From Mycobacterium sp. DL440 (GTDB lineage: Bacteria > Actinomycetota > Actinomycetes > Mycobacteriales > Mycobacteriaceae): a DNA stretch of 64,000 nucleotides. Numbering within the stretch: the stretch's first letter is position 1; each line of letters opens with the position of its first letter. Made by a program: the position numbers and the translations under genes. A model generated the notes under the pieces. The model did not search any database. It worked only from the letters and a program-made list of their open reading frames with translations, and was not told the origin of the DNA. Location of the stretch: NCBI RefSeq assembly GCF_011745145.1, contig NZ_CP050191.1, positions 647,991-711,990 of the forward strand. Reading direction: 5' to 3'. Positions 10,634 through 21,205 of the stretch are shown piece by piece.

Positions 10634-12292
10634 ATGCCTGACGCTCGGACTGACATCGCGTCGCTGCTGCTCGACCGCGTCGGCGACCAACACCTCGGCC
10701 TGCGTACCCGCGATCGGGACTGGACCTGGGACGAGGTGGTCGCCGAGTCCGCCGCGCGTGGCGCGCTGGCACAGGCGATGCAGGTGGATGGCCCGTTGCA
10801 CATCGGCGTGCTGCTGGACAACGTGCCGGATTTCCTGTTCTGGCTGGGTGGTGCGGCTCTGGTCGGGGCCACCGTTGTCGGAATCAACCCGACCCGAGGT
10901 GCTACCGAGTTGGCAGCCGAAATCCGGCTTGCCGATTGCCAATTGATCGTCACCGACTCCGCAGGCGCAGCGCGGCTGCGCAGTCTGGACCTCGGCCTGG
11001 CGCCCGAGCGGTTCCTCGTGGTCGACGGCCGGGACTACACCGCGCAACTCGACGCGCATCGCGTCACCCCCGCGGTCTCACCCGGGGTCACCGACGACTC
11101 CCTGATGCTGCTGCTGTTCACCTCGGGAACGACGGGCGCCTCCAAGGCGGTCATCTGCAGTCAGGGCCGGCTGGCCCGGATCGCCTACACAGCCGCCGAG
11201 AAATTCGGCCACGTGCGCGAAGACGTGGAGTACTGCTGCATGCCGCTGTTCCACGGCAACGCCATCATGGCGTTGTGGGCGCCGGCGCTGTCGGTGGGTG
11301 CCACCGTCTGTCTGACGCCATCGTTCTCGGCGTCCGGATTCCTCCCGGACGTGCGGTATTTCGGTGCCACTTTCTTCACCTACGTCGGCAAGGCGCTCGG
11401 TTACCTGATGGTCACCGCAGAACAACCTGACGATGCCGAGAACCCGTTGATCCGGGGCTTCGGTACCGAGGCGTCACCCGACGACCAGAACGAGTTCCGG
11501 CGCCGCTTCGACGCCGAACTGTTCGAAGGCTACGGCTCCAGCGAAGGCGGTGGGGCCGTGGTGCTGGCCCCGGACATGCCGCCGGGCGCTCTCGGCCGCC
11601 CGGCACACGACGGGGTGGCGATCGTCGACCCGGAATCACTGAATGACTGTGTGCCGGCAGTTTTCGATGAGCACGGCCGGGTGCTCAACTCCGATGATGC
11701 GGTGGGGGAGATCGTCGACAAGTTCGGCACCCGCACCTTCGAGGGGTACTACAAGAACGACGCGGCTAATGCCGAACGCATCCGTAACGGCTGGTACTGG
11801 ACGGGTGATCTCGGCTATCTCGACGAGCAGGGGTTCATCTACTTCGCCGGCCGCCGTGGTGACTGGATCCGGGTGGACGGCGAGAACACCTCGGCGCTCA
11901 ACATCGAGCGGGTACTGCGGCGTCATCCCGACGTGGTGGCAGCCGGCGTCTACGCGGTGCCCGATCCGCGCTCGGGTGATCAGGTGATGGCCGCGATCGA
12001 GGTGTCCGACCCCACCGGCTTCGACGCCGCGGCGTTCGGGACCTACCTGACCGACCAGAATGACCTGGGTGCCAAGGCAATTCCGCGATTCCTGCGGGTG
12101 TCGAAGAACCTGCCGGTCACCGGGTCCAACAAGGTGCTCAAACGTGAACTGCAACAGGAACGCTGGCACACCGGCGAGGTGGTGTACCGGTGGACGGGAC
12201 GCGGCGAACCGGTGTATCGGGCCATGGGCGACGATGACAAGCAATCGTTGGACGCCGAGTTCAGGCAGTACGGGAGGCAGCGTTACATATGA
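10634..12292 (+). CDS. Acyl-CoA synthetase, FadD17-like
   Basis: 552 residues, ANL superfamily. The AMP-binding P-loop is LFTSGTTGASKA (about 156-167), followed by the YGSSEGG motif, the TGDLGY hinge and GRRGDWIRVDGENTS. It should activate a carboxylic acid to its CoA thioester. The closest family by look is the FadD17/FadD1 group linked to sterol side-chain breakdown. Downstream kstD and kshA homologues 10 bp away point to a steroid acid as substrate. A 19-codon frame just upstream overlaps its ATG. Family is certain; substrate is inferred. Confidence 0.85.
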   Translation: MPDARTDIASLLLDRVGDQHLGLRTRDRDWTWDEVVAESAARGALAQAMQVDGPLHIGVLLDNVPDFLFWLGGAALVGATVVGINPTRGATELAAEIRLADCQLIVTDSAGAARLRSLDLGLAPERFLVVDGRDYTAQLDAHRVTPAVSPGVTDDSLMLLLFTSGTTGASKAVICSQGRLARIAYTAAEKFGHVREDVEYCCMPLFHGNAIMALWAPALSVGATVCLTPSFSASGFLPDVRYFGATFFTYVGKALGYLMVTAEQPDDAENPLIRGFGTEASPDDQNEFRRRFDAELFEGYGSSEGGGAVVLAPDMPPGALGRPAHDGVAIVDPESLNDCVPAVFDEHGRVLNSDDAVGEIVDKFGTRTFEGYYKNDAANAERIRNGWYWTGDLGYLDEQGFIYFAGRRGDWIRVDGENTSALNIERVLRRHPDVVAAGVYAVPDPRSGDQVMAAIEVSDPTGFDAAAFGTYLTDQNDLGAKAIPRFLRVSKNLPVTGSNKVLKRELQQERWHTGEVVYRWTGRGEPVYRAMGDDDKQSLDAEFRQYGRQRYI

Positions 12293-12302
12293 GGCGGTTC
12301 GC

Positions 12303-13850
12303 ATGAAATGGGATGAAGCGTGTGACGTCCTGGTCGCCGGATCGGGCGGTGGCGGCGTGGCCGGCGCCTACACCGCGGCCCGTGAAGGGCTGTCGGTGAT
12401 CCTGGTGGAGGCCAGCGACAAATTCGGCGGCACCACAGCGTATTCCGGTGGCGGCGGGGTGTGGTTTCCGTGCAACCCGGTGCTCACCCGGGCCGGCACC
12501 GATGACACCATCGAGGACGCGCTGGAGTACTACCACGCCGTCGTGGGCGACCGTACCCCGCGGGAACTGCAGGACACCTACGTCCGCGGTGGCGCCGGAC
12601 TGATCGAGTACCTCGAAGCAGATGACAACCTGAAGTTCGCGCCAATGCCGTGGCCTGACTATTTCGGCAAGGCGCCCAAGGCCCGGACCGACGGGCAACG
12701 CCACATCGCGGCTCGGCCGCTCAAGGTGGAGAAGGCCCCGCACCTGCGCGAGCTGGTGCGGGGGCCGCTCGACGCCGACCGGCTCGGCACCGAACAGCCC
12801 GACGACTACTTCATCGGCGGCCGGGCATTGATTGCCCGGTTCCTGAAAGCGATCGGGCAGTACCCGAAAGCGTCGCTGCGGCTCAACACCCCGCTGGTGG
12901 AGTTGGTGGTCGAGGACGGGGCCGTGACCGGTGCGATCGTCGAATCCGACGGCGAGCGCCACGCGATCCGGGCCCGACGCGGCGTGCTGCTCGCCGCGGG
13001 CGGATTCGAAGGCAACGATGAGCTGCGCCGTGAATACGGCGTGCCGGGCGTCGCCCGCGACACCATGGGGCCGCCGGCCAACCTGGGCCAGGCGCATCAG
13101 GCGGCGATGGCCGTCGGCGCCGACGTCGACCTGATGGAGCAGGCCTGGTGGTCCCCGGGCCTGACGCACCCCGACGGTCGCTCGGCGTTCGCGCTGTGGT
13201 TCACCGGCGGCATCTTCGTCGACCAGAACGGACAGCGTTTCGTCAACGAATCTGCCGCCTACGACCGTATCGGCCGGGCGATCCTGCCGCGGCTGGCCGA
13301 TGGTTCGATGACGTTGCCGTACTGGATGATCTACGACGACCGGGAGGGGGAAGTCCCTCCGGTCAAGGCCACCAACGTCTCGATGGTCGACACGCAGCAC
13401 TACGTCGACGCCGGTTTGTGGCACACCGCCGACACCCTGGAAGAGCTGGCCATCAAGATCGGCGTCCCGGCCGAGAACCTGACCGCCACCGTGACGCGCT
13501 TCAACGGCTTCGTCGACGCCGGCTCGGACGAGGATTTCGGCCGCGGCGACGAGGCCTACGACCGGGCCTTCTCCGGCGGCGCATCCCCACTCGTCGCGAT
13601 CGAGAAGGGGCCTTTCCACGCCGCTGCCTTCGGTATCTCCGACCTCGGTACCAAGGGCGGGTTGCGTACCGACACCGCTGCCCGGGTACTCGACGTCGAC
13701 GGGCAGGCGATCGCCGGACTGTATGCCGCGGGTAACACCATGGCCGCTCCCAGTGGCACCGCATATCCGGGCGGCGGAAATCCGATCGGAACCAGCATGC
13801 TGTTCAGCCACCTGGCGGTCAAAGACATGTTAGGGAAGACGTATGAGTGA
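12303..13850 (+). CDS. KstD-like FAD-dependent 3-ketosteroid dehydrogenase
   Basis: 515 residues. The N-terminal FAD loop is VLVAGSGGGGVAGA with EASDKFGGTTAYSGG following, as in fumarate-reductase/KstD flavoproteins. The C-terminal AYPGGGNPIG carries the Tyr and Gly that in studied KstD proteins polarise the C3 ketone. It probably introduces a double bond in ring A of a 3-ketosteroid. The ATG at 12303 has GAGGCGG six bases upstream. It overlaps kshA by 8 bp. It could also be a related 3-oxo-5-alpha-steroid dehydrogenase. Confidence 0.82.
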   Translation: MKWDEACDVLVAGSGGGGVAGAYTAAREGLSVILVEASDKFGGTTAYSGGGGVWFPCNPVLTRAGTDDTIEDALEYYHAVVGDRTPRELQDTYVRGGAGLIEYLEADDNLKFAPMPWPDYFGKAPKARTDGQRHIAARPLKVEKAPHLRELVRGPLDADRLGTEQPDDYFIGGRALIARFLKAIGQYPKASLRLNTPLVELVVEDGAVTGAIVESDGERHAIRARRGVLLAAGGFEGNDELRREYGVPGVARDTMGPPANLGQAHQAAMAVGADVDLMEQAWWSPGLTHPDGRSAFALWFTGGIFVDQNGQRFVNESAAYDRIGRAILPRLADGSMTLPYWMIYDDREGEVPPVKATNVSMVDTQHYVDAGLWHTADTLEELAIKIGVPAENLTATVTRFNGFVDAGSDEDFGRGDEAYDRAFSGGASPLVAIEKGPFHAAAFGISDLGTKGGLRTDTAARVLDVDGQAIAGLYAAGNTMAAPSGTAYPGGGNPIGTSMLFSHLAVKDMLGKTYE

Positions 13851-14973
13851 CATCCGGGAAATCGACGCCGGCACTGCGATGACGCGGTTCGCGCGCGGCT
13901 GGCACTGCGTCGGGCTCGCTGAATCGTTCCGTGACGGGCAGCCGCACGGCATCGAAGCGTTCGGCACCAAGCTCGTCATCTATGCCGACTCCGCCGGTGA
14001 ACTGCATGTGCTCGACTCGTACTGCAGGCACATGGGCGGCGACCTGTCGATGGGGTCGGTCAAGGACGACAACCTGGCCTGCCCCTTCCATGACTGGCGT
14101 TGGGGCGGCGACGGAAAGTGCAAGCTGGTGCCGTATGCCAAGCGCACCCCGCGGCTGGCACGCACCCGTAAATGGCCCACGTCTGAGGTCAACGGTCAGC
14201 TGCTGGTCTGGCACGACCCGGAAGGTTCTGAGCCCGCTGCCGAGTTGATCCCGCCCACCATCGAGGGCTATGAGCAGGGCCTCTGGTCGCCGTGGCAATG
14301 GAATTCGCTCCTGATCGAAGGATCGCACTGCCGCGAGATCGTCGACAACAACGTCGACATGGCGCACTTCTTCTACATCCACCACGCCTACCCGACGTAC
14401 TTCAAGAACGTGATCGAAGGTCACACCGCGAGCCAGTTCATGGAGTCCAAGCCACGTCCGGACTACGCCACCAGAGAGCTCTGGGACGGCACCTACCTGC
14501 GTTCGGAAGCTACGTATTTCGGCCCGGCATACATGATCAACTGGTTGCACAACGACCTCGCCCCGGACTTCACCGTCGAGATCGCCCTGATCAACTGTCA
14601 CTACCCGGTGAGCCATGATTCGTTCGTGCTGCAGTGGGGTGTCGCGGTCCAGCAGAATCCCGCACTGCCGGCGGAGAAGGCCGAGAAACTCGCGGCGACG
14701 ATGAGCCGGAGTTTCGGAGACGGCTTCATGGAGGACGTCGAGATCTGGAAACACAAGGCTCGCATCGACAACCCGTTGCTCACCGAGGAGGACGGGCCGG
14801 TGTACCACCATCGCCGGTGGTACGAGCAGTTCTATGTCGATGTCGCCGATGTCACGCCCGACATGACCGACCGCTTTGAGCAGGAGGTCGACACCACGCA
14901 CGCCAACGAGCTCTGGCATCAGGAGGTCGCCGACAACCTGGCGGCCCTCAACACTGCGAAAGCCGCGCACTAG
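13843..14973 (+). CDS. KshA-like Rieske oxygenase (3-ketosteroid 9-alpha-hydroxylase oxygenase)
   Basis: 376 residues. The Rieske cluster ligands are C61-x-H63 and C80-x2-H83 (CRHM, CPFH). The mononuclear iron site follows in DNNVDMAHFFYIHH, near 171-184. Length and both motifs match KshA. With a reductase partner (KshB, not in this window) it would hydroxylate C9 and, together with the KstD step, open ring B. It is the last gene of the fadD-kstD-kshA operon and ends 23 bp before the birA start. Substrate range among KshA paralogues varies, so the sterol or bile-acid assignment is inference. Confidence 0.85.
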   Translation: MSDIREIDAGTAMTRFARGWHCVGLAESFRDGQPHGIEAFGTKLVIYADSAGELHVLDSYCRHMGGDLSMGSVKDDNLACPFHDWRWGGDGKCKLVPYAKRTPRLARTRKWPTSEVNGQLLVWHDPEGSEPAAELIPPTIEGYEQGLWSPWQWNSLLIEGSHCREIVDNNVDMAHFFYIHHAYPTYFKNVIEGHTASQFMESKPRPDYATRELWDGTYLRSEATYFGPAYMINWLHNDLAPDFTVEIALINCHYPVSHDSFVLQWGVAVQQNPALPAEKAEKLAATMSRSFGDGFMEDVEIWKHKARIDNPLLTEEDGPVYHHRRWYEQFYVDVADVTPDMTDRFEQEVDTTHANELWHQEVADNLAALNTAKAAH

Positions 14974-16410: not shown

Positions 16411-17160
16411 ATGACCGCACGGCTGAACCACTTGGAGACCGCCTTCGATCAGGCCATAGTGGTGATACCGGCGCACAACGAAGCTGCACTGCTGCCTCGC
16501 TGTCTGCGCGGGATCACCACGGCCGCAGCATGTTGGCGGGGGCCGGTGCTGGTCGTTGTCGTCCTCGATTCCTGTGACGACAGCAGCGCCCAGTTGGCGG
16601 GCCAGTTCGGCTGCGACGTCCACTTCGTCAGTGTCACGGCGGGCAACGTCGGTGCGAGCCGGGCGGCCGGTTTCGCCTATGCGCGCTCGCTGAGCAACCA
16701 CGTCGACGACTCGCGCGTCTGGTACGCCACCACCGACGCCGACAGCCGAGTGGATCCCGACTGGCTGCTGCGTCAGACCGCGCCGGTTGCCGACATGGTG
16801 CTGGGCGTGGTGCGGGTGGCTGACTGGCGGCATCACCCCGCCGCACTGGTCCGGCGATACCTGCGTGCATACGAGTCCGACATGCGGGGCATCAACGGTC
16901 ACAACCACATCCACGGCGCCAATATGGGTTTCTGTGCCGACGCGTACTGGCGGGTTGGTGGCTTCCACCCGCTGACCACTGGCGAGGATGTCGAATTGGT
17001 CGAAAGGTTCGAGACCGCCTCCTATCGGATACGACGGGACCCGTCGCTGTCGGTCACCACGTCAGCGCGGCGGAACGGCCGGGCTCCCGGCGGCTTCGCC
17101 GGTTACCTCCGCGATTTGTCGCGATCGGTATTCCCTTCGGCCGAACGGGATTCCGCATGA
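16411..17160 (+). CDS. GT2 family glycosyltransferase
   Basis: 249 residues from ATG 16411. GT-A fold: VVIPAHNEAALLPRC at the start, a DSCDDSS turn, the metal-binding TTDADSRVDPDWL (about 107-119) and GANMGFCADAYWRVGGF. No membrane helix follows, so it should be soluble or peripheral. It opens a four-gene run in which every junction overlaps by 4 bp, with an acyl-CoA-dehydrogenase-like protein, a PIG-L deacetylase and a NodS-type methyltransferase. That set suggests synthesis of a modified amino-sugar conjugate. Product unknown. Confidence 0.82.
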   Translation: MTARLNHLETAFDQAIVVIPAHNEAALLPRCLRGITTAAACWRGPVLVVVVLDSCDDSSAQLAGQFGCDVHFVSVTAGNVGASRAAGFAYARSLSNHVDDSRVWYATTDADSRVDPDWLLRQTAPVADMVLGVVRVADWRHHPAALVRRYLRAYESDMRGINGHNHIHGANMGFCADAYWRVGGFHPLTTGEDVELVERFETASYRIRRDPSLSVTTSARRNGRAPGGFAGYLRDLSRSVFPSAERDSA

Positions 17161-18110
17161 CGGCGGGCTTGGTTCGGAGCTGGTTGGAGTCGGGCCGGCT
17201 GGAGTTGCCACTGCCGGGTTCCGGTGCGACGGCGCGGCGCTGGCAGCGGCTTGCGGAGCTGACGGAGATCGACGTCGTCGCTGGGCGACTCGCAGAAGCT
17301 CACGTCGACGCGGTCGCGATCCTCGACGAGCTCGGTGCAAAACCGCCTGCACCAGGCGAGCTGTGGGCGGTGTGGGCCGCCGAAGACCCGGAGGCTGTAC
17401 TCAACGCCCACACCACTGCAGACCGCGAAACAGACACAGTGAGACTGTCAGGAACCAAACCGTGGTGTTCGGGGGCGGGGCTCTGCACACACGCGTTGGT
17501 GACAGCTCGCCGAGACGACGGCCGACGCGCGCTGTACGTGGTGGCGACTGACAACGCCGGGGTACAGCCCCTGCCCAGTACCTGGAGGAATGCCGGCATG
17601 GCGGCCAGTGACACCCGCTCGGTCCAATTCGGTAACGCGCTGGGTGTACCCGTCGGTGGTCCCGGCGACTATCTGGATCGTCCCGGCTTCTGGCACGGCG
17701 CGATCGGCGTCGCGGCGTGTTGGCTCGGTGCCGCCCGCGCGGTCGCCGCACCCTTGTACGCCCGCGTCGCCCGCGGAGATGCCGACGAGCATGCGCTGGC
17801 CCACCTCGGCGCTGTCGACGCTGCGATCACGGCCGCCGAAGCGATGCTGGCTGCGGCGGCTGCGGCGACCGACGCCGACCCGTTCGACCGGTCCGGGTCT
17901 GCCCAATTGCTGGCCAGGCGAACCCGCGCCGTCATCGAAACCGCCGTCGACGCGGCGATTAACCGCACTGGCCGCGCACTCGGGCCCGCGCCGTTGTGTC
18001 GGGATGCCCAACACGCACGTCGCGTCGCGGATCTGACGATCTACGTGCGACAGAGCCACGCCGAGCGTGACCTCGCCGCGCTCGGAAGGCTGGCGGGGGA
18101 GCGCCGATGA
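17157..18110 (+). CDS. Acyl-CoA dehydrogenase-like protein (short, unusual)
   Basis: 317 residues, shorter than the usual 380-400. It keeps the mid-domain beta-barrel signature (LSGTKPWCSGAGLCTHALVTAR, in the place where FadE proteins read G-x-K-x-W-I-T) and a C-terminal helical bundle ending YVRQSHAERDLAALG. The usual catalytic Glu segment near YEGTNQIQ is missing. It could oxidise a small substrate, or be a flavin-dependent oxidase or halogenase-like relative. It overlaps the GT2 and PIG-L genes by 4 bp each. Fold call is reasonable; reaction is unknown. Confidence 0.65.
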   Translation: MTAGLVRSWLESGRLELPLPGSGATARRWQRLAELTEIDVVAGRLAEAHVDAVAILDELGAKPPAPGELWAVWAAEDPEAVLNAHTTADRETDTVRLSGTKPWCSGAGLCTHALVTARRDDGRRALYVVATDNAGVQPLPSTWRNAGMAASDTRSVQFGNALGVPVGGPGDYLDRPGFWHGAIGVAACWLGAARAVAAPLYARVARGDADEHALAHLGAVDAAITAAEAMLAAAAAATDADPFDRSGSAQLLARRTRAVIETAVDAAINRTGRALGPAPLCRDAQHARRVADLTIYVRQSHAERDLAALGRLAGERR

Positions 18111-18886
18111 CTGCCGCGGAGTCCGCTGAATCGTGCGGCAACGCACCGCGGTTCGGGTCGCGGCCGCTGAGCTGCGGCGGCACCCCCGGTCACGTCTGGA
18201 CCAGCTGGGGTCGCTCCTTCGGAGAGTTGGACCTCGGGACATGTCCTGCGCTGGTGGTGGTCGCACCGCATCCCGACGACGAGACCCTCGGCTTCGGGGC
18301 GACCATGGCGCTGCTGGCGGCGCGGGGTATCGACGTCCAGGTGGTGTCGGTCAGTGACGGCGGGGCGGCCCAAGGCGATCTCACGCCGTTCGACAGATTC
18401 CGACTGGAACGCACCAGGAGCGCCGAGTTGGCAAAGGCAGCAAAGGTTCTCGGTGTGGACGAGCCGATCAGCCTCGCATTACCTGACGGCGAGCTTGCCG
18501 GCTACCAGGACTCGATCACCGATCTGCTGACCGGGATTCTCCAGGCCTGCCCGCCCGGCACCTGGTGCGCCACAACGTGGCGCGGTGACGGGCACCCCGA
18601 TCACGAGGCCGTCGGACGGGCCGCCGCCACGGCCGTGCAACGCACCGCGGCGGTCCTGCTCGAGTACCCGGTCTGGATGTGGCACTGGGCCAGACCCGGA
18701 GACTCCGCAGTGCCGTGGGATCGGGCGCTTACGGTGCCACTGACGGCCTCCGCCGTGGGGCTCAAGAAGGTTGCCGCACAATGCTTCCGCAGTCAGTTCC
18801 ACCCACTGGTGCCTGGTGCGGGCCCAGTGCTGCCGCCGTTCGTGTTGCCTCGGCTGCTCGCGGTCGGGGAGATGGTGTTCCGTTGA
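18107..18886 (+). CDS. PIG-L (LmbE) family zinc deacetylase
   Basis: 259 residues. The first motif is VVVAPHPDDETLGFGATM (about 47-64), giving the His-Pro-Asp-Asp zinc site, and the second is GHPDHEAVG near 165. The family hydrolyses N-acetyl groups of GlcNAc derivatives (MshB, Mca, PIG-L). Next to a GT2 and a methyltransferase it probably deacetylates a GlcNAc-type conjugate made by the GT2. It is distinct from MshB by context. It overlaps both neighbours by 4 bp. Confidence 0.85.
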   Translation: MTAAESAESCGNAPRFGSRPLSCGGTPGHVWTSWGRSFGELDLGTCPALVVVAPHPDDETLGFGATMALLAARGIDVQVVSVSDGGAAQGDLTPFDRFRLERTRSAELAKAAKVLGVDEPISLALPDGELAGYQDSITDLLTGILQACPPGTWCATTWRGDGHPDHEAVGRAAATAVQRTAAVLLEYPVWMWHWARPGDSAVPWDRALTVPLTASAVGLKKVAAQCFRSQFHPLVPGAGPVLPPFVLPRLLAVGEMVFR

Positions 18887-19533
18887 CGGCGCGCCTGCCC
18901 GACGCATACTTCGACCGCATGTACGCGACCTCGGCCGATCCGTGGCAGCTGGCGACCCGCTGGTATGAGCAACGCAAGTACGCGATCACTCTGTCGATGC
19001 TGCCGTACCGGCGCTATCGGCATGCCTTCGAGCCGGGTTGCTCGATCGGCACCCTCACCGCGTTGCTTGCCGGGCGCTGCGATCACGTCACCGCAATGGA
19101 TGTGGCGGCCGCCGCGCTGGAGATCGCCGACGTCCGACTGCGTGCCGATGGCTGCCGTGACGGGACGCGGGACCGCATCACCCTGACGCGTGGGTCTCTC
19201 GACGATCCTTGGCCGCCAGGGCCTTTCGACCTACTTGTGCTTTCTGAAGTGGCGTACTACCTAGACGAGGAATTGCTGGCTGAGCTGCTCCGCCGGGAGT
19301 GTCCGCAGTTGGTCCGCGGTGCGACGGTGGTAGCGGCGCACTGGCGTCACGAGGTGGCCGACTATCCGCTCAGCGGTGATCAGGCCAACCGGGTCATCGC
19401 GGCGACGCCGGGGCTCATTTCGATCGGCGGCTACCGCGACCGCGACGTGGTCATCGAAGTCTTCGACACCCACAGCGCTGCATCCGTCGCTGCGCGCAAT
19501 GGTGTCCCGGGAGCCGGTTCGTACGGCGAATAG
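18883..19533 (+). CDS. NodS-like SAM-dependent methyltransferase
   Basis: 216 residues from TTG 18883, overlapping the PIG-L stop as TTGA. The segment DPWQLATRWYEQRKYAITLSMLP near the start is the NodS family hallmark; the SAM site is HAFEPGCSIGTLT with DVAAAALEIA for the adenosine side. NodS N-methylates the freed amino group of a deacetylated chito-oligosaccharide, which fits a PIG-L enzyme just upstream. By analogy this protein may methylate the amine produced by its neighbour. The analogy is inference; the class is clear. Confidence 0.8.
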   Translation: MTARLPDAYFDRMYATSADPWQLATRWYEQRKYAITLSMLPYRRYRHAFEPGCSIGTLTALLAGRCDHVTAMDVAAAALEIADVRLRADGCRDGTRDRITLTRGSLDDPWPPGPFDLLVLSEVAYYLDEELLAELLRRECPQLVRGATVVAAHWRHEVADYPLSGDQANRVIAATPGLISIGGYRDRDVVIEVFDTHSAASVAARNGVPGAGSYGE

Positions 19534-20149: not shown

Positions 20150-20323
20150 ATGAGTGCTGTTGACAAGGCGAAGAACAAGGCCGAAGAGTTGGCTGGAAAG
20201 GCCAAGGAAAAGGTCGGCCAGGCAACCGGAGACAAGGACACCGAGGCGGAGGGTCACAAGGATCAGGCCAAGGGCAACCTGAAGCAGGCCGGCGAGAAGG
20301 TCAAGGACGTCTTCAAGAAGTGA
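20150..20323 (+). CDS. CsbD-family stress protein
   Basis: 57 residues, Lys/Glu/Gly-rich and hydrophilic: KAKNKAEELAGKAKEKVGQ then GNLKQAGEKVKDVFKK. This matches CsbD, a general-stress protein of unknown function in many bacteria. AAGGAG at 20137-20142 sets the ATG at 20150. It stands between the frameshifted coil protein and a tiny membrane protein, suggesting a stress-type module at the right side of the island. Confidence 0.88.
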   Translation: MSAVDKAKNKAEELAGKAKEKVGQATGDKDTEAEGHKDQAKGNLKQAGEKVKDVFKK

Positions 20324-20629: not shown

Positions 20630-21205
20630 TCACCCCTGATCGGGCCGGCGGGCGATCGCCAATTGTCGGTCGATGTGATCGAGGCGGGCGAGTAGCAGGG
20701 CGAGGTCGCCGCGGGTTGCGGGCTGCGCATCGTGGGCGAGGGTGAGGACCAGCTGGCCGCTGGGCTCCAACAAGCCCAGCTCCACGTCATCGGTGCTGTC
20801 ACCGTCCTGGACGCGGACGGCGTGTTCCAACTCGGCGCGGCGCAGACCGAGCCGCCGCATCGCCCGCCGGTCCACCTCACCGTTTTCGATGACCGCCGTT
20901 GCGGTGCCCTCGAACACCCGGGACGCGGTGGGGCTGACGGCGATCAGCCGGTTCATCGCAGTGTTGACCGCGACCAGCGTCACGGCCCCGACCACCCCGC
21001 CGAGCAGGCTGTTGTCAGCGCCGATGATGGCGTTCTGCACAACATTGCTCAACAGGAAGATCACCACGAAGTCCAAGGTGTTGAGGCTGGCCAAGCCGCG
21101 TTTGCCGGTCAGGCGGAACAACACCATGATCACCGCATAGACCAGCACCGTGCGCAGAACCTTCTCCAGGATGGGTATCTGCATCACGAACATGTCGTTG
21201 ACCAC
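20630..21205 (-). CDS. DUF421 (YetF-like) membrane protein
   Basis: 191 residues with three N-terminal helices and a cytoplasmic domain. RTVLVYAVIMVLFRLTGKRGLASLNTLDFVVIFLLSNVVQNAI is spread over about 17-60 and is the DUF421 pattern (R-x-x-GKR--Q/S-x-N--D). The YetF family is linked to spore and stress phenotypes in Bacillus, but the activity is unknown. The GTG at 21205 has GAGGAGG (minus strand) just upstream. It is the only minus-strand gene within the island, next to the right 42-bp repeat. Confidence 0.85.
   Translation of the reverse strand: MVNDMFVMQIPILEKVLRTVLVYAVIMVLFRLTGKRGLASLNTLDFVVIFLLSNVVQNAIIGADNSLLGGVVGAVTLVAVNTAMNRLIAVSPTASRVFEGTATAVIENGEVDRRAMRRLGLRRAELEHAVRVQDGDSTDDVELGLLEPSGQLVLTLAHDAQPATRGDLALLLARLDHIDRQLAIARRPDQG

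Follow-up and report, generated by a model that had tools for sequence, protein, structure and literature searches.

The 64,000-nucleotide stretch of Mycobacterium sp. DL440 analysed here (the window; contig NZ_CP050191.1, positions 647,991 to 711,990, from a genome of 6.38 Mb in a single contig) contains a real, conserved and coupled operon of four genes, encoding a GT2 glycosyltransferase, a flavoprotein of the acyl-CoA dehydrogenase (ACAD) superfamily, a PIG-L deacetylase and a NodS-like S-adenosylmethionine (SAM) methyltransferase. We interpret the operon as an amino-sugar tailoring pathway, with a probability of about 0.5. The GT2 enzyme would transfer an amino sugar bearing an N-acetyl group onto an acceptor, the PIG-L enzyme would strip that acetyl group and the NodS-like enzyme would then methylate the freed amine with SAM, this pair of steps being the best supported by the genome evidence; the ACAD-like flavoenzyme would oxidise this same compound, perhaps on its amine in the manner of the amino-sugar N-oxygenase KijD3. 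No acyltransferase, polymerase or exporter is present among the four genes, which favours a small glycoside or glycolipid over a secreted oligosaccharide resembling a Nod factor. Each of the genes carries only a generic or misleading name (e.g. 'acyl-CoA dehydrogenase') despite its wide recurrence, and no account of the four-gene set was found in the open-licence PMC literature, outside of which one may exist. The operon is a testable case of an ACAD-fold enzyme lacking the catalytic Glu encoded beside a deacetylase and a methyltransferase.

A conserved and coupled operon

The four open reading frames (ORFs), read directly, overlap by 4 bp at every junction (ATGA, ATGA and TTGA), in agreement with a preliminary description of this DNA made from the sequence alone. 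The same spacing is common in the named loci L017-L096, when both genes are found on the + strand of the locus; an exact 4-bp overlap is seen in 50 of 54 GT2/ACAD-like pairs, 43 of 67 ACAD-like/PIG-L pairs and 44 of 52 PIG-L/methyltransferase pairs, the misses including one, two and three non-adjacent pairs respectively. Coordinates are shown in Table 1.

Table 1. The operon and two downstream genes of the window, with the basis for each assignment.
Feature	Coordinates	Strand	Length and evidence
GT2 glycosyltransferase	16411-17160	+	249 aa; ORF reading, Pfam
ACAD-superfamily flavoprotein without catalytic Glu, probably oxygenase-like	17157-18110	+	317 aa; PF02770, PDB profile, unrooted tree
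PIG-L (LmbE-like) zinc N-deacetylase	18107-18886	+	259 aa; PF02585, motifs
NodS-like SAM methyltransferase	18883-19533	+	216 aa, TTG start over the PIG-L stop; PF05401
CsbD-like gene, downstream; stress-type neighbour, probably outside the operon	20150-20323	+	PF05532 2e-16
DUF421/YetF gene, downstream neighbour, outside the operon	20630-21205	-	PF04239 4e-12

Profile searches of 148 genomes of the genus identify the ACAD-like protein in 87 (E up to 1e-20), PIG-L in 72 (1e-35), GT2 in 63 (1e-30) and the methyltransferase in 62 (1e-20). All four are present in 59 genomes and none in 57; the ACAD-like gene occurs alone in 14, with PIG-L only in 11, and other partial sets account for seven. Gene starts lie within 6 kb of one another for the ACAD-like and methyltransferase genes in 59 genomes, for the ACAD-like and GT2 genes in 61, and for all three in 58. 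The methyltransferase gene is not adjacent to the ACAD-like gene in genomes G301 and G030 and occurs without it in G013, as GT2 does in G014 and G289. Rare co-occurrence elsewhere had been set beforehand as the observation that would speak against such a pathway, and the four families do travel together.

A broader sample of 197 genomes of the phylum gives the same picture. Fifty-six have an ACAD-like match at E up to 0.001, and 25 of these are retained (24 at 69 bits or more, together with a 31.7-bit fragment at a contig end in G240), the 31 genomes with matches of at most 36.8 bits being set aside as containing ordinary ACADs. The methyltransferase is found in 33 genomes at E up to 1e-12, with 23 above 140 bits retained and the other ten scoring no more than 84. 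With the weaker rows dropped in this way, the ACAD-like and methyltransferase genes adjoin in 23 of the 23 genomes containing the methyltransferase family, and only G017 and G068 have the ACAD-like gene without it. In G068 (L107, L133) the reading frame of the ACAD-like gene is interrupted and no methyltransferase is matched at E up to 1e-12, a pattern suggestive of a decaying cluster. PIG-L proteins are broadly common (106 of 197 genomes at 1e-12); the ten best hits, at 126.5 bits or more, are all encoded adjoining an ACAD-like gene, and the next hit scores 106 bits.

The preliminary description spoke of a pathway in a mycobacterium; the set is not special to mycobacteria. The same genes occur together in mycobacteria, Nocardia, Rhodococcus, Kitasatospora, Acinetobacter, Burkholderiales, Novosphingobium, Deinococcus and Nostoc, with a form containing a CE4 deacetylase (see below) in Rubrobacter. 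The ACAD-like, PIG-L and methyltransferase genes lie together on annotated plasmids of Kitasatospora, Pandoraea, Acinetobacter, Novosphingobium and Deinococcus, with GT2-type genes nearby that are either annotated or detected by tblastn, and which are on the opposite strand in Deinococcus and Nostoc. In Cupriavidus the ACAD-like, methyltransferase and glycosyltransferase genes are grouped with a divergent PIG-L gene ~3 kb away, and all four proteins are matched, at 26-36% identity, on a Nostoc plasmid that lacks annotation. The set is found on plasmids of Pseudomonadota, Deinococcota and Cyanobacteriota. In distant actinobacterial families (L104-L106) the order is shuffled and the set is kept, GT2 not being seen in the short stretch of L106, and retention of the set while the order changes points to a shared function.

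Given these patterns, a chance grouping of ordinary genes with generic roles such as fatty-acid oxidation and xenobiotic deacetylation is exceedingly improbable. The family names are indeed generic and the ACAD superfamily is large in the window's genome (107 PF00441 matches), but a chance grouping fits poorly with the conserved 4-bp overlaps, the co-inheritance, the gene fusions described below, the survival of the set through changes of order and the missing catalytic Glu, and the co-occurrence counts lead us to reject it.

Proposed deacetylation and methylation

The GT2 protein matches PF00535 above the gathering score (E 4e-11, 43.5 bits versus 23.3) and has a DxD-type motif (DADS, at residue 109) as well as EDV at residue 192, the profile score and DxD-type motif together placing it in the GT2 family. 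Six NCBIfam models are matched, every one far under its cut-off. The peak mean hydropathy over 19 residues is 1.67, and the protein is apparently soluble.

The PIG-L protein also passes the gathering score of its Pfam family (PF02585; 4e-26, 92.4 bits versus 28.2) and contains HPDDE at residue 55 and HPDHE at residue 163, motifs of this type having a zinc role; score and motifs together identify it as a PIG-L zinc N-deacetylase. Its named PDB relatives are mostly deacetylases of N-acyl amino-sugar compounds. Among the NCBIfam models it scores 54.3 bits with BshB2, 53.5 with BshB1 and 38 with MshB, where the cut-offs are 182.5-224.35, and it thus falls outside the BshB and MshB families. The operon resembles the mycothiol and bacillithiol pathways in these matches and in combining glycosyl transfer with PIG-L deacetylation. 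Those pathways use a GT4 enzyme, a PIG-L deacetylase (MshB or BshB) and a Cys ligase, whereas the operon has a GT2 enzyme and a methyltransferase, with the flavoprotein added.

The methyltransferase matches the NodS family PF05401 (1e-11), and NodS is an enzyme that N-methylates a de-N-acetylated amino sugar. In the PDB the single sequence matches 4isc at 6e-28 and NodS (3ofj) at 2e-05, and the family profile ranks 4isc first, followed by NodS and then by phosphoethanolamine N-methyltransferases. Its score of 50.5 bits with the NodS equivalog model NF041650 is far below the cut-off of 300, and the protein is not a member of that equivalog family.

Two features of related clusters, both consistent with the deacetylation and N-methylation proposed in the preliminary description, bear on how these enzymes would work together. 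The first is fusion. PIG-L and methyltransferase are encoded by one ORF in G034, G307, G329, G301 and G030 (at least five of the 148 genus genomes) and in G140, from another family; Pfam detects both the PIG-L and NodS domains in all three of the six fusions that were tested. Some of these are named by NCBI as 'bifunctional PIG-L family deacetylase/class I SAM-dependent methyltransferase', a natural union of the operon's third and fourth families that is known by name alone. Such a fusion suggests that methylation follows deacetylation on the same molecule. In five relatives of the fusion (P0182, P0183, P0185, P0187 and P0201), whose alignments cover 94-99% of the query, no PF02585 match is precomputed; divergence or decay of the deacetylase half would give such a picture.

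The second feature is replacement. In Rubrobacter-like clusters a CE4 gene is followed by ACAD-like, methyltransferase and reductase genes in all 16 loci examined, which represent ~11 distinct genomes (ten of one family and G115 of another). The remaining five loci are duplicates: L109, L113, L117 and L119 equal L127, L129, L131 and L130, and L115 equals L016 (Rubrobacter indicoceani), 100% over the CE4 gene. GT2 follows the reductase in all six CE4 loci long enough to show it (L127-L131 and L016), and the PIG-L search has no hit in these stretches. One gene is in two pieces in L120 and in L131. The CE4 assignment is from Pfam in two loci and otherwise from 44-64% similarity; NodB is the best NCBIfam model for the single CE4 protein tested (108.7 bits, cut-off 240), and the best models for the reductase are the dioxygenase ferredoxin reductases HcaD/AndAa (208 bits, cut-off 450). 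With PIG-L exchanged for a CE4 deacetylase of unrelated fold within the same cluster, there is good reason to regard N-deacetylation as a needed step.

Fusion and CE4 replacement are independent kinds of evidence, and together with the co-inheritance of the genes they argue for a NodB/NodS-like logic as chemistry and not as family membership. In Nod factor synthesis NodB deacetylates, NodS N-methylates and NodC is a GT2 enzyme, and the cluster includes the acyltransferase NodA and the chitin synthase NodC. The operon similarly unites a GT2 enzyme, an amino-sugar-type N-deacetylase and a NodS-like methyltransferase, and the Rubrobacter-like clusters share the CE4 type of deacetylase. The window operon differs in having PIG-L in place of CE4, an additional flavoprotein and no acyltransferase, as well as scores far under the NodB and NodS cut-offs. 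None of its four proteins matches the NCBIfam NodA or NodC models, a search that was confined to these four within the genome, and on the proteins tested the operon is not a Nod factor cluster. If the pathway is as proposed, NodB/NodS-like chemistry would be in use outside symbiosis.

The methyltransferase could instead act on an acceptor oxygen or carbon, with the operon decorating the cell envelope or a lipid. The low NodS equivalog score is compatible with this, as are the O-methylators within the fold (DnrK is among the family-profile matches), the extra glycosyltransferases in L013 and L015, and the UDP-galactopyranose mutase in L013. However, the profile matches next after 4isc are NodS and N-methyltransferases, and both the fusions and the CE4 replacement also count against it; we regard methylation away from the amine as improbable.

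The ACAD-like flavoprotein

The only Pfam match of the ACAD-like protein is to the ACAD middle domain (PF02770, 8e-09). True acyl-CoA dehydrogenases have the catalytic Glu in an EGT motif. Profile alignment to ACADs places Ser300 of the window protein at this position, and Glu is present in none of the 61 aligned rows of the family (the window's row included), which have S in 38, H in 18, P in two, and A, F and Q in one each; its absence, already noted in the preliminary description, extends to every aligned row. Residues H49, R257, G276, D292 and Q299 are invariant in all 61 rows. A flavin-side stretch, G-x-K-x-(W/F)-C-S-G-A, is also conserved, with Ser105 in 60 of 61 rows; HMMER aligns its K..(W/F)CSGA portion with K159-A165 of DszC and Ser105 with DszC Ser163 (chain numbering).

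A search of the PDB with the 61-row profile has DszC (4e-22) and TdsC (9e-20) above all other matches, followed by an ACAD-type-2 protein (5gj7/5z8t), MsuC (2e-17), caffeyl-CoA reductase, ACAD 2dvl (1e-15) and KijD3 (3e-14), with SCAD at ~5e-13. An unrooted tree was built with six oxygenase-like rows (labelled from PF08028 scores and a C-terminal motif) and 17 dehydrogenase-type rows from the same genome. Thirteen operon proteins form their own 100/100 group, the 17 ACADs are set off by another 100/100 branch, and the ACAD-like family is not joined to the oxygenase-like rows. By the absence of Glu and the placement in the tree, the protein is not a true acyl-CoA dehydrogenase. From these comparisons of sequence it is probably oxygenase-like within the ACAD fold, and perhaps acts on the amine. 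ChmG is an ACAD-superfamily enzyme proposed as an N-oxygenase, with Met replacing the catalytic residue (excerpt of PMC10849742).

The likeness to the ACAD-fold monooxygenases and N-oxygenases (DszC, MsuC, KijD3, ORF36 and DnmZ) lies in the PDB ranking of DszC and TdsC, the CSGA stretch and the missing Glu; unlike DszC/KijD3-type enzymes, the ACAD-like protein is ~80-140 residues shorter, is only remotely similar and has its own group in the tree. Several observations weigh against an oxygenase-like assignment. ACAD 2dvl outranks KijD3 in the PDB search, and ORF36 and DnmZ rank under several ACADs. Among superfamily members of its own genome, the best match of the profile is the ACAD L149 at 67 bits, compared with 36 bits for the best oxygenase-like protein, and profile-profile scores in the same comparison are near each other (119 versus 108). 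In DszC, His391 helps to protonate O2 (excerpt of PMC11134501); by eye its position corresponds to Gln299 (61/61), whereas a gap in the hhalign alignment would put His301 (44/61) there, so that conservation of this DszC residue is not clear. The family is not filed here as a group D (DszC/KijD3-type) monooxygenase, since the own-genome profiles split oxygenase-like proteins from ACADs poorly. The dehydrogenase role implied by the preliminary description is not supported, the tests leaning towards oxygenase-like, if not cleanly.

The Deinococcus gobiensis ACAD-like protein (L013:3893-6241) has an N-terminal region of ~400 residues without a Pfam match; downstream of its gene are those for a GT4-type transferase and UDP-galactopyranose mutase.

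A further set of observations weighs against the four genes forming a strict four-step pathway. The ACAD-like gene lacks GT2, PIG-L and methyltransferase in 14 of the 148 genus genomes and is accompanied by PIG-L alone in 11; at L027 and L035, two named loci where it lacks all three partners, the conserved residues of its product are retained. Among 80 named loci, a PF03372 phosphoesterase-like gene is near in 17 of the 21 without GT2 and methyltransferase, versus nine of the 48 with all four genes. In G301 and G030 GT2 adjoins the ACAD-like gene, the fused PIG-L-methyltransferase being encoded on a different contig (accompanied in G301 by a second GT2), and the 8 kb stretch L202 has the fusion and GT2 but no ACAD-like gene. 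Fisher values for co-occurrence (~1e-17 to 1e-35) overstate the significance, as the genomes are related and these are not true probabilities. It may be that the flavoenzyme has another substrate as well, or that it can be separated from the glycan module. Co-inheritance upholds the coupling within the compact four-gene pathway of the preliminary description, and the separability of the ACAD-like gene does not support a strict four-step form.

Taken further, these distributions could reflect two modules on one transcript. GT2, PIG-L and methyltransferase would form a glycan module whose product is an N-methylated amino-sugar glycoside, and the flavoenzyme would act independently on a stress-related substrate of its own. 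The genomes with the ACAD-like gene alone or with PIG-L only, often with the phosphoesterase-like gene nearby, and the L202 arrangement favour such a division. Set against it are the adjacency of the ACAD-like and methyltransferase genes in every phylum-sample genome with the latter and the persistence of this pair beside the unrelated CE4 deacetylase, and we consider it somewhat unlikely. The PF03372 gene (endonuclease/exonuclease/phosphatase family) follows immediately after the ACAD-like or PIG-L gene at L035:8945-9706, L024:9777-10541, L027:8985-9749 and L031:8970-9731.

Neighbouring genes and a possible product

The surroundings of the operon were surveyed in 88 named or related loci, mostly mycobacterial, of which L001 (the window) to L008 have short flanks and 79 have a called ACAD-like gene. 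Recurrent neighbours, the families being named from one representative each (four for PF03372), are an opposite-strand nucleotidyltransferase-like gene (41 loci), PF03372 (35), topoisomerase IB (28), an NAD(P)-binding protein (28) and a long catalase (19). A catalase is near the cluster in three of the seven annotated plasmid stretches (Cupriavidus, Acinetobacter and Novosphingobium). Found once each near plasmid clusters are GlgE with topoisomerase IB (Cupriavidus), otsAB with DUF421 (Acinetobacter, L012) and CsbD (Pandoraea, L011); the Kitasatospora, Deinococcus and Rubrobacter stretches have none of catalase, GlgE, topoisomerase IB, otsAB, DUF421 or CsbD. The long catalase, topoisomerase IB, CsbD, DUF421 and trehalose genes suggest a stress-protective role, from raw counts with no background rate.

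A promoter signal of the SigF type is weak. A loosened consensus (GTTT-N14-18-GGG[TA]) is matched in the 300 bases preceding GT2 (or the ACAD-like gene in loci without GT2) at 27 of 79 loci; the corresponding figures are eight of 79 for reverse complements and 41 of 510 for the other genes of these loci. A stricter form (GTTT-N15-17-GGGTA) is matched at 10 of 79, versus four of 79 reverse complements and 33 of 510 other genes (p 0.06). The GGWWT form is not enriched (two of 88 loci versus a shuffle mean of 0.6), and by eye the window shows no match in the sequence inspected.

A speculative and rather unlikely idea is that of a widespread old pathway, present in four or more phyla and frequently plasmid-borne and close to stress genes, to an N-methylated, N-oxidised amino-sugar metabolite, a glycoside of hydroxylamine or nitrone type. 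Its amine would be freed by either of two unrelated deacetylase folds, methylated by the NodS-like enzyme and oxygenated by the Glu-less ACAD-fold enzyme. A stress-linked amino-sugar metabolite, if real, would be a conserved small molecule seemingly not sought before.

In the window the operon is flanked on its 5' side by a biotin ligase and a PH-domain gene, and on its 3' side by a small ORF without a Pfam match, then CsbD, DUF421 and GtrA genes (Pfam), followed by an ORF that we take to be purK-like. Upstream of the biotin ligase (12060-14973) are what we presume to be a FAD-binding dehydrogenase-like ORF and then a Rieske-type oxygenase-like ORF, by eye with a steroid-degradation look. Close named ACAD-like proteins are from Mycolicibacterium lutetiense, porcinum, septicum and peregrinum. 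The biotin ligase and PH-domain genes have no match in the remaining locus stretches, some of them short, and adjoin the operon only in L002, L003, L017 and L018 besides the window itself.

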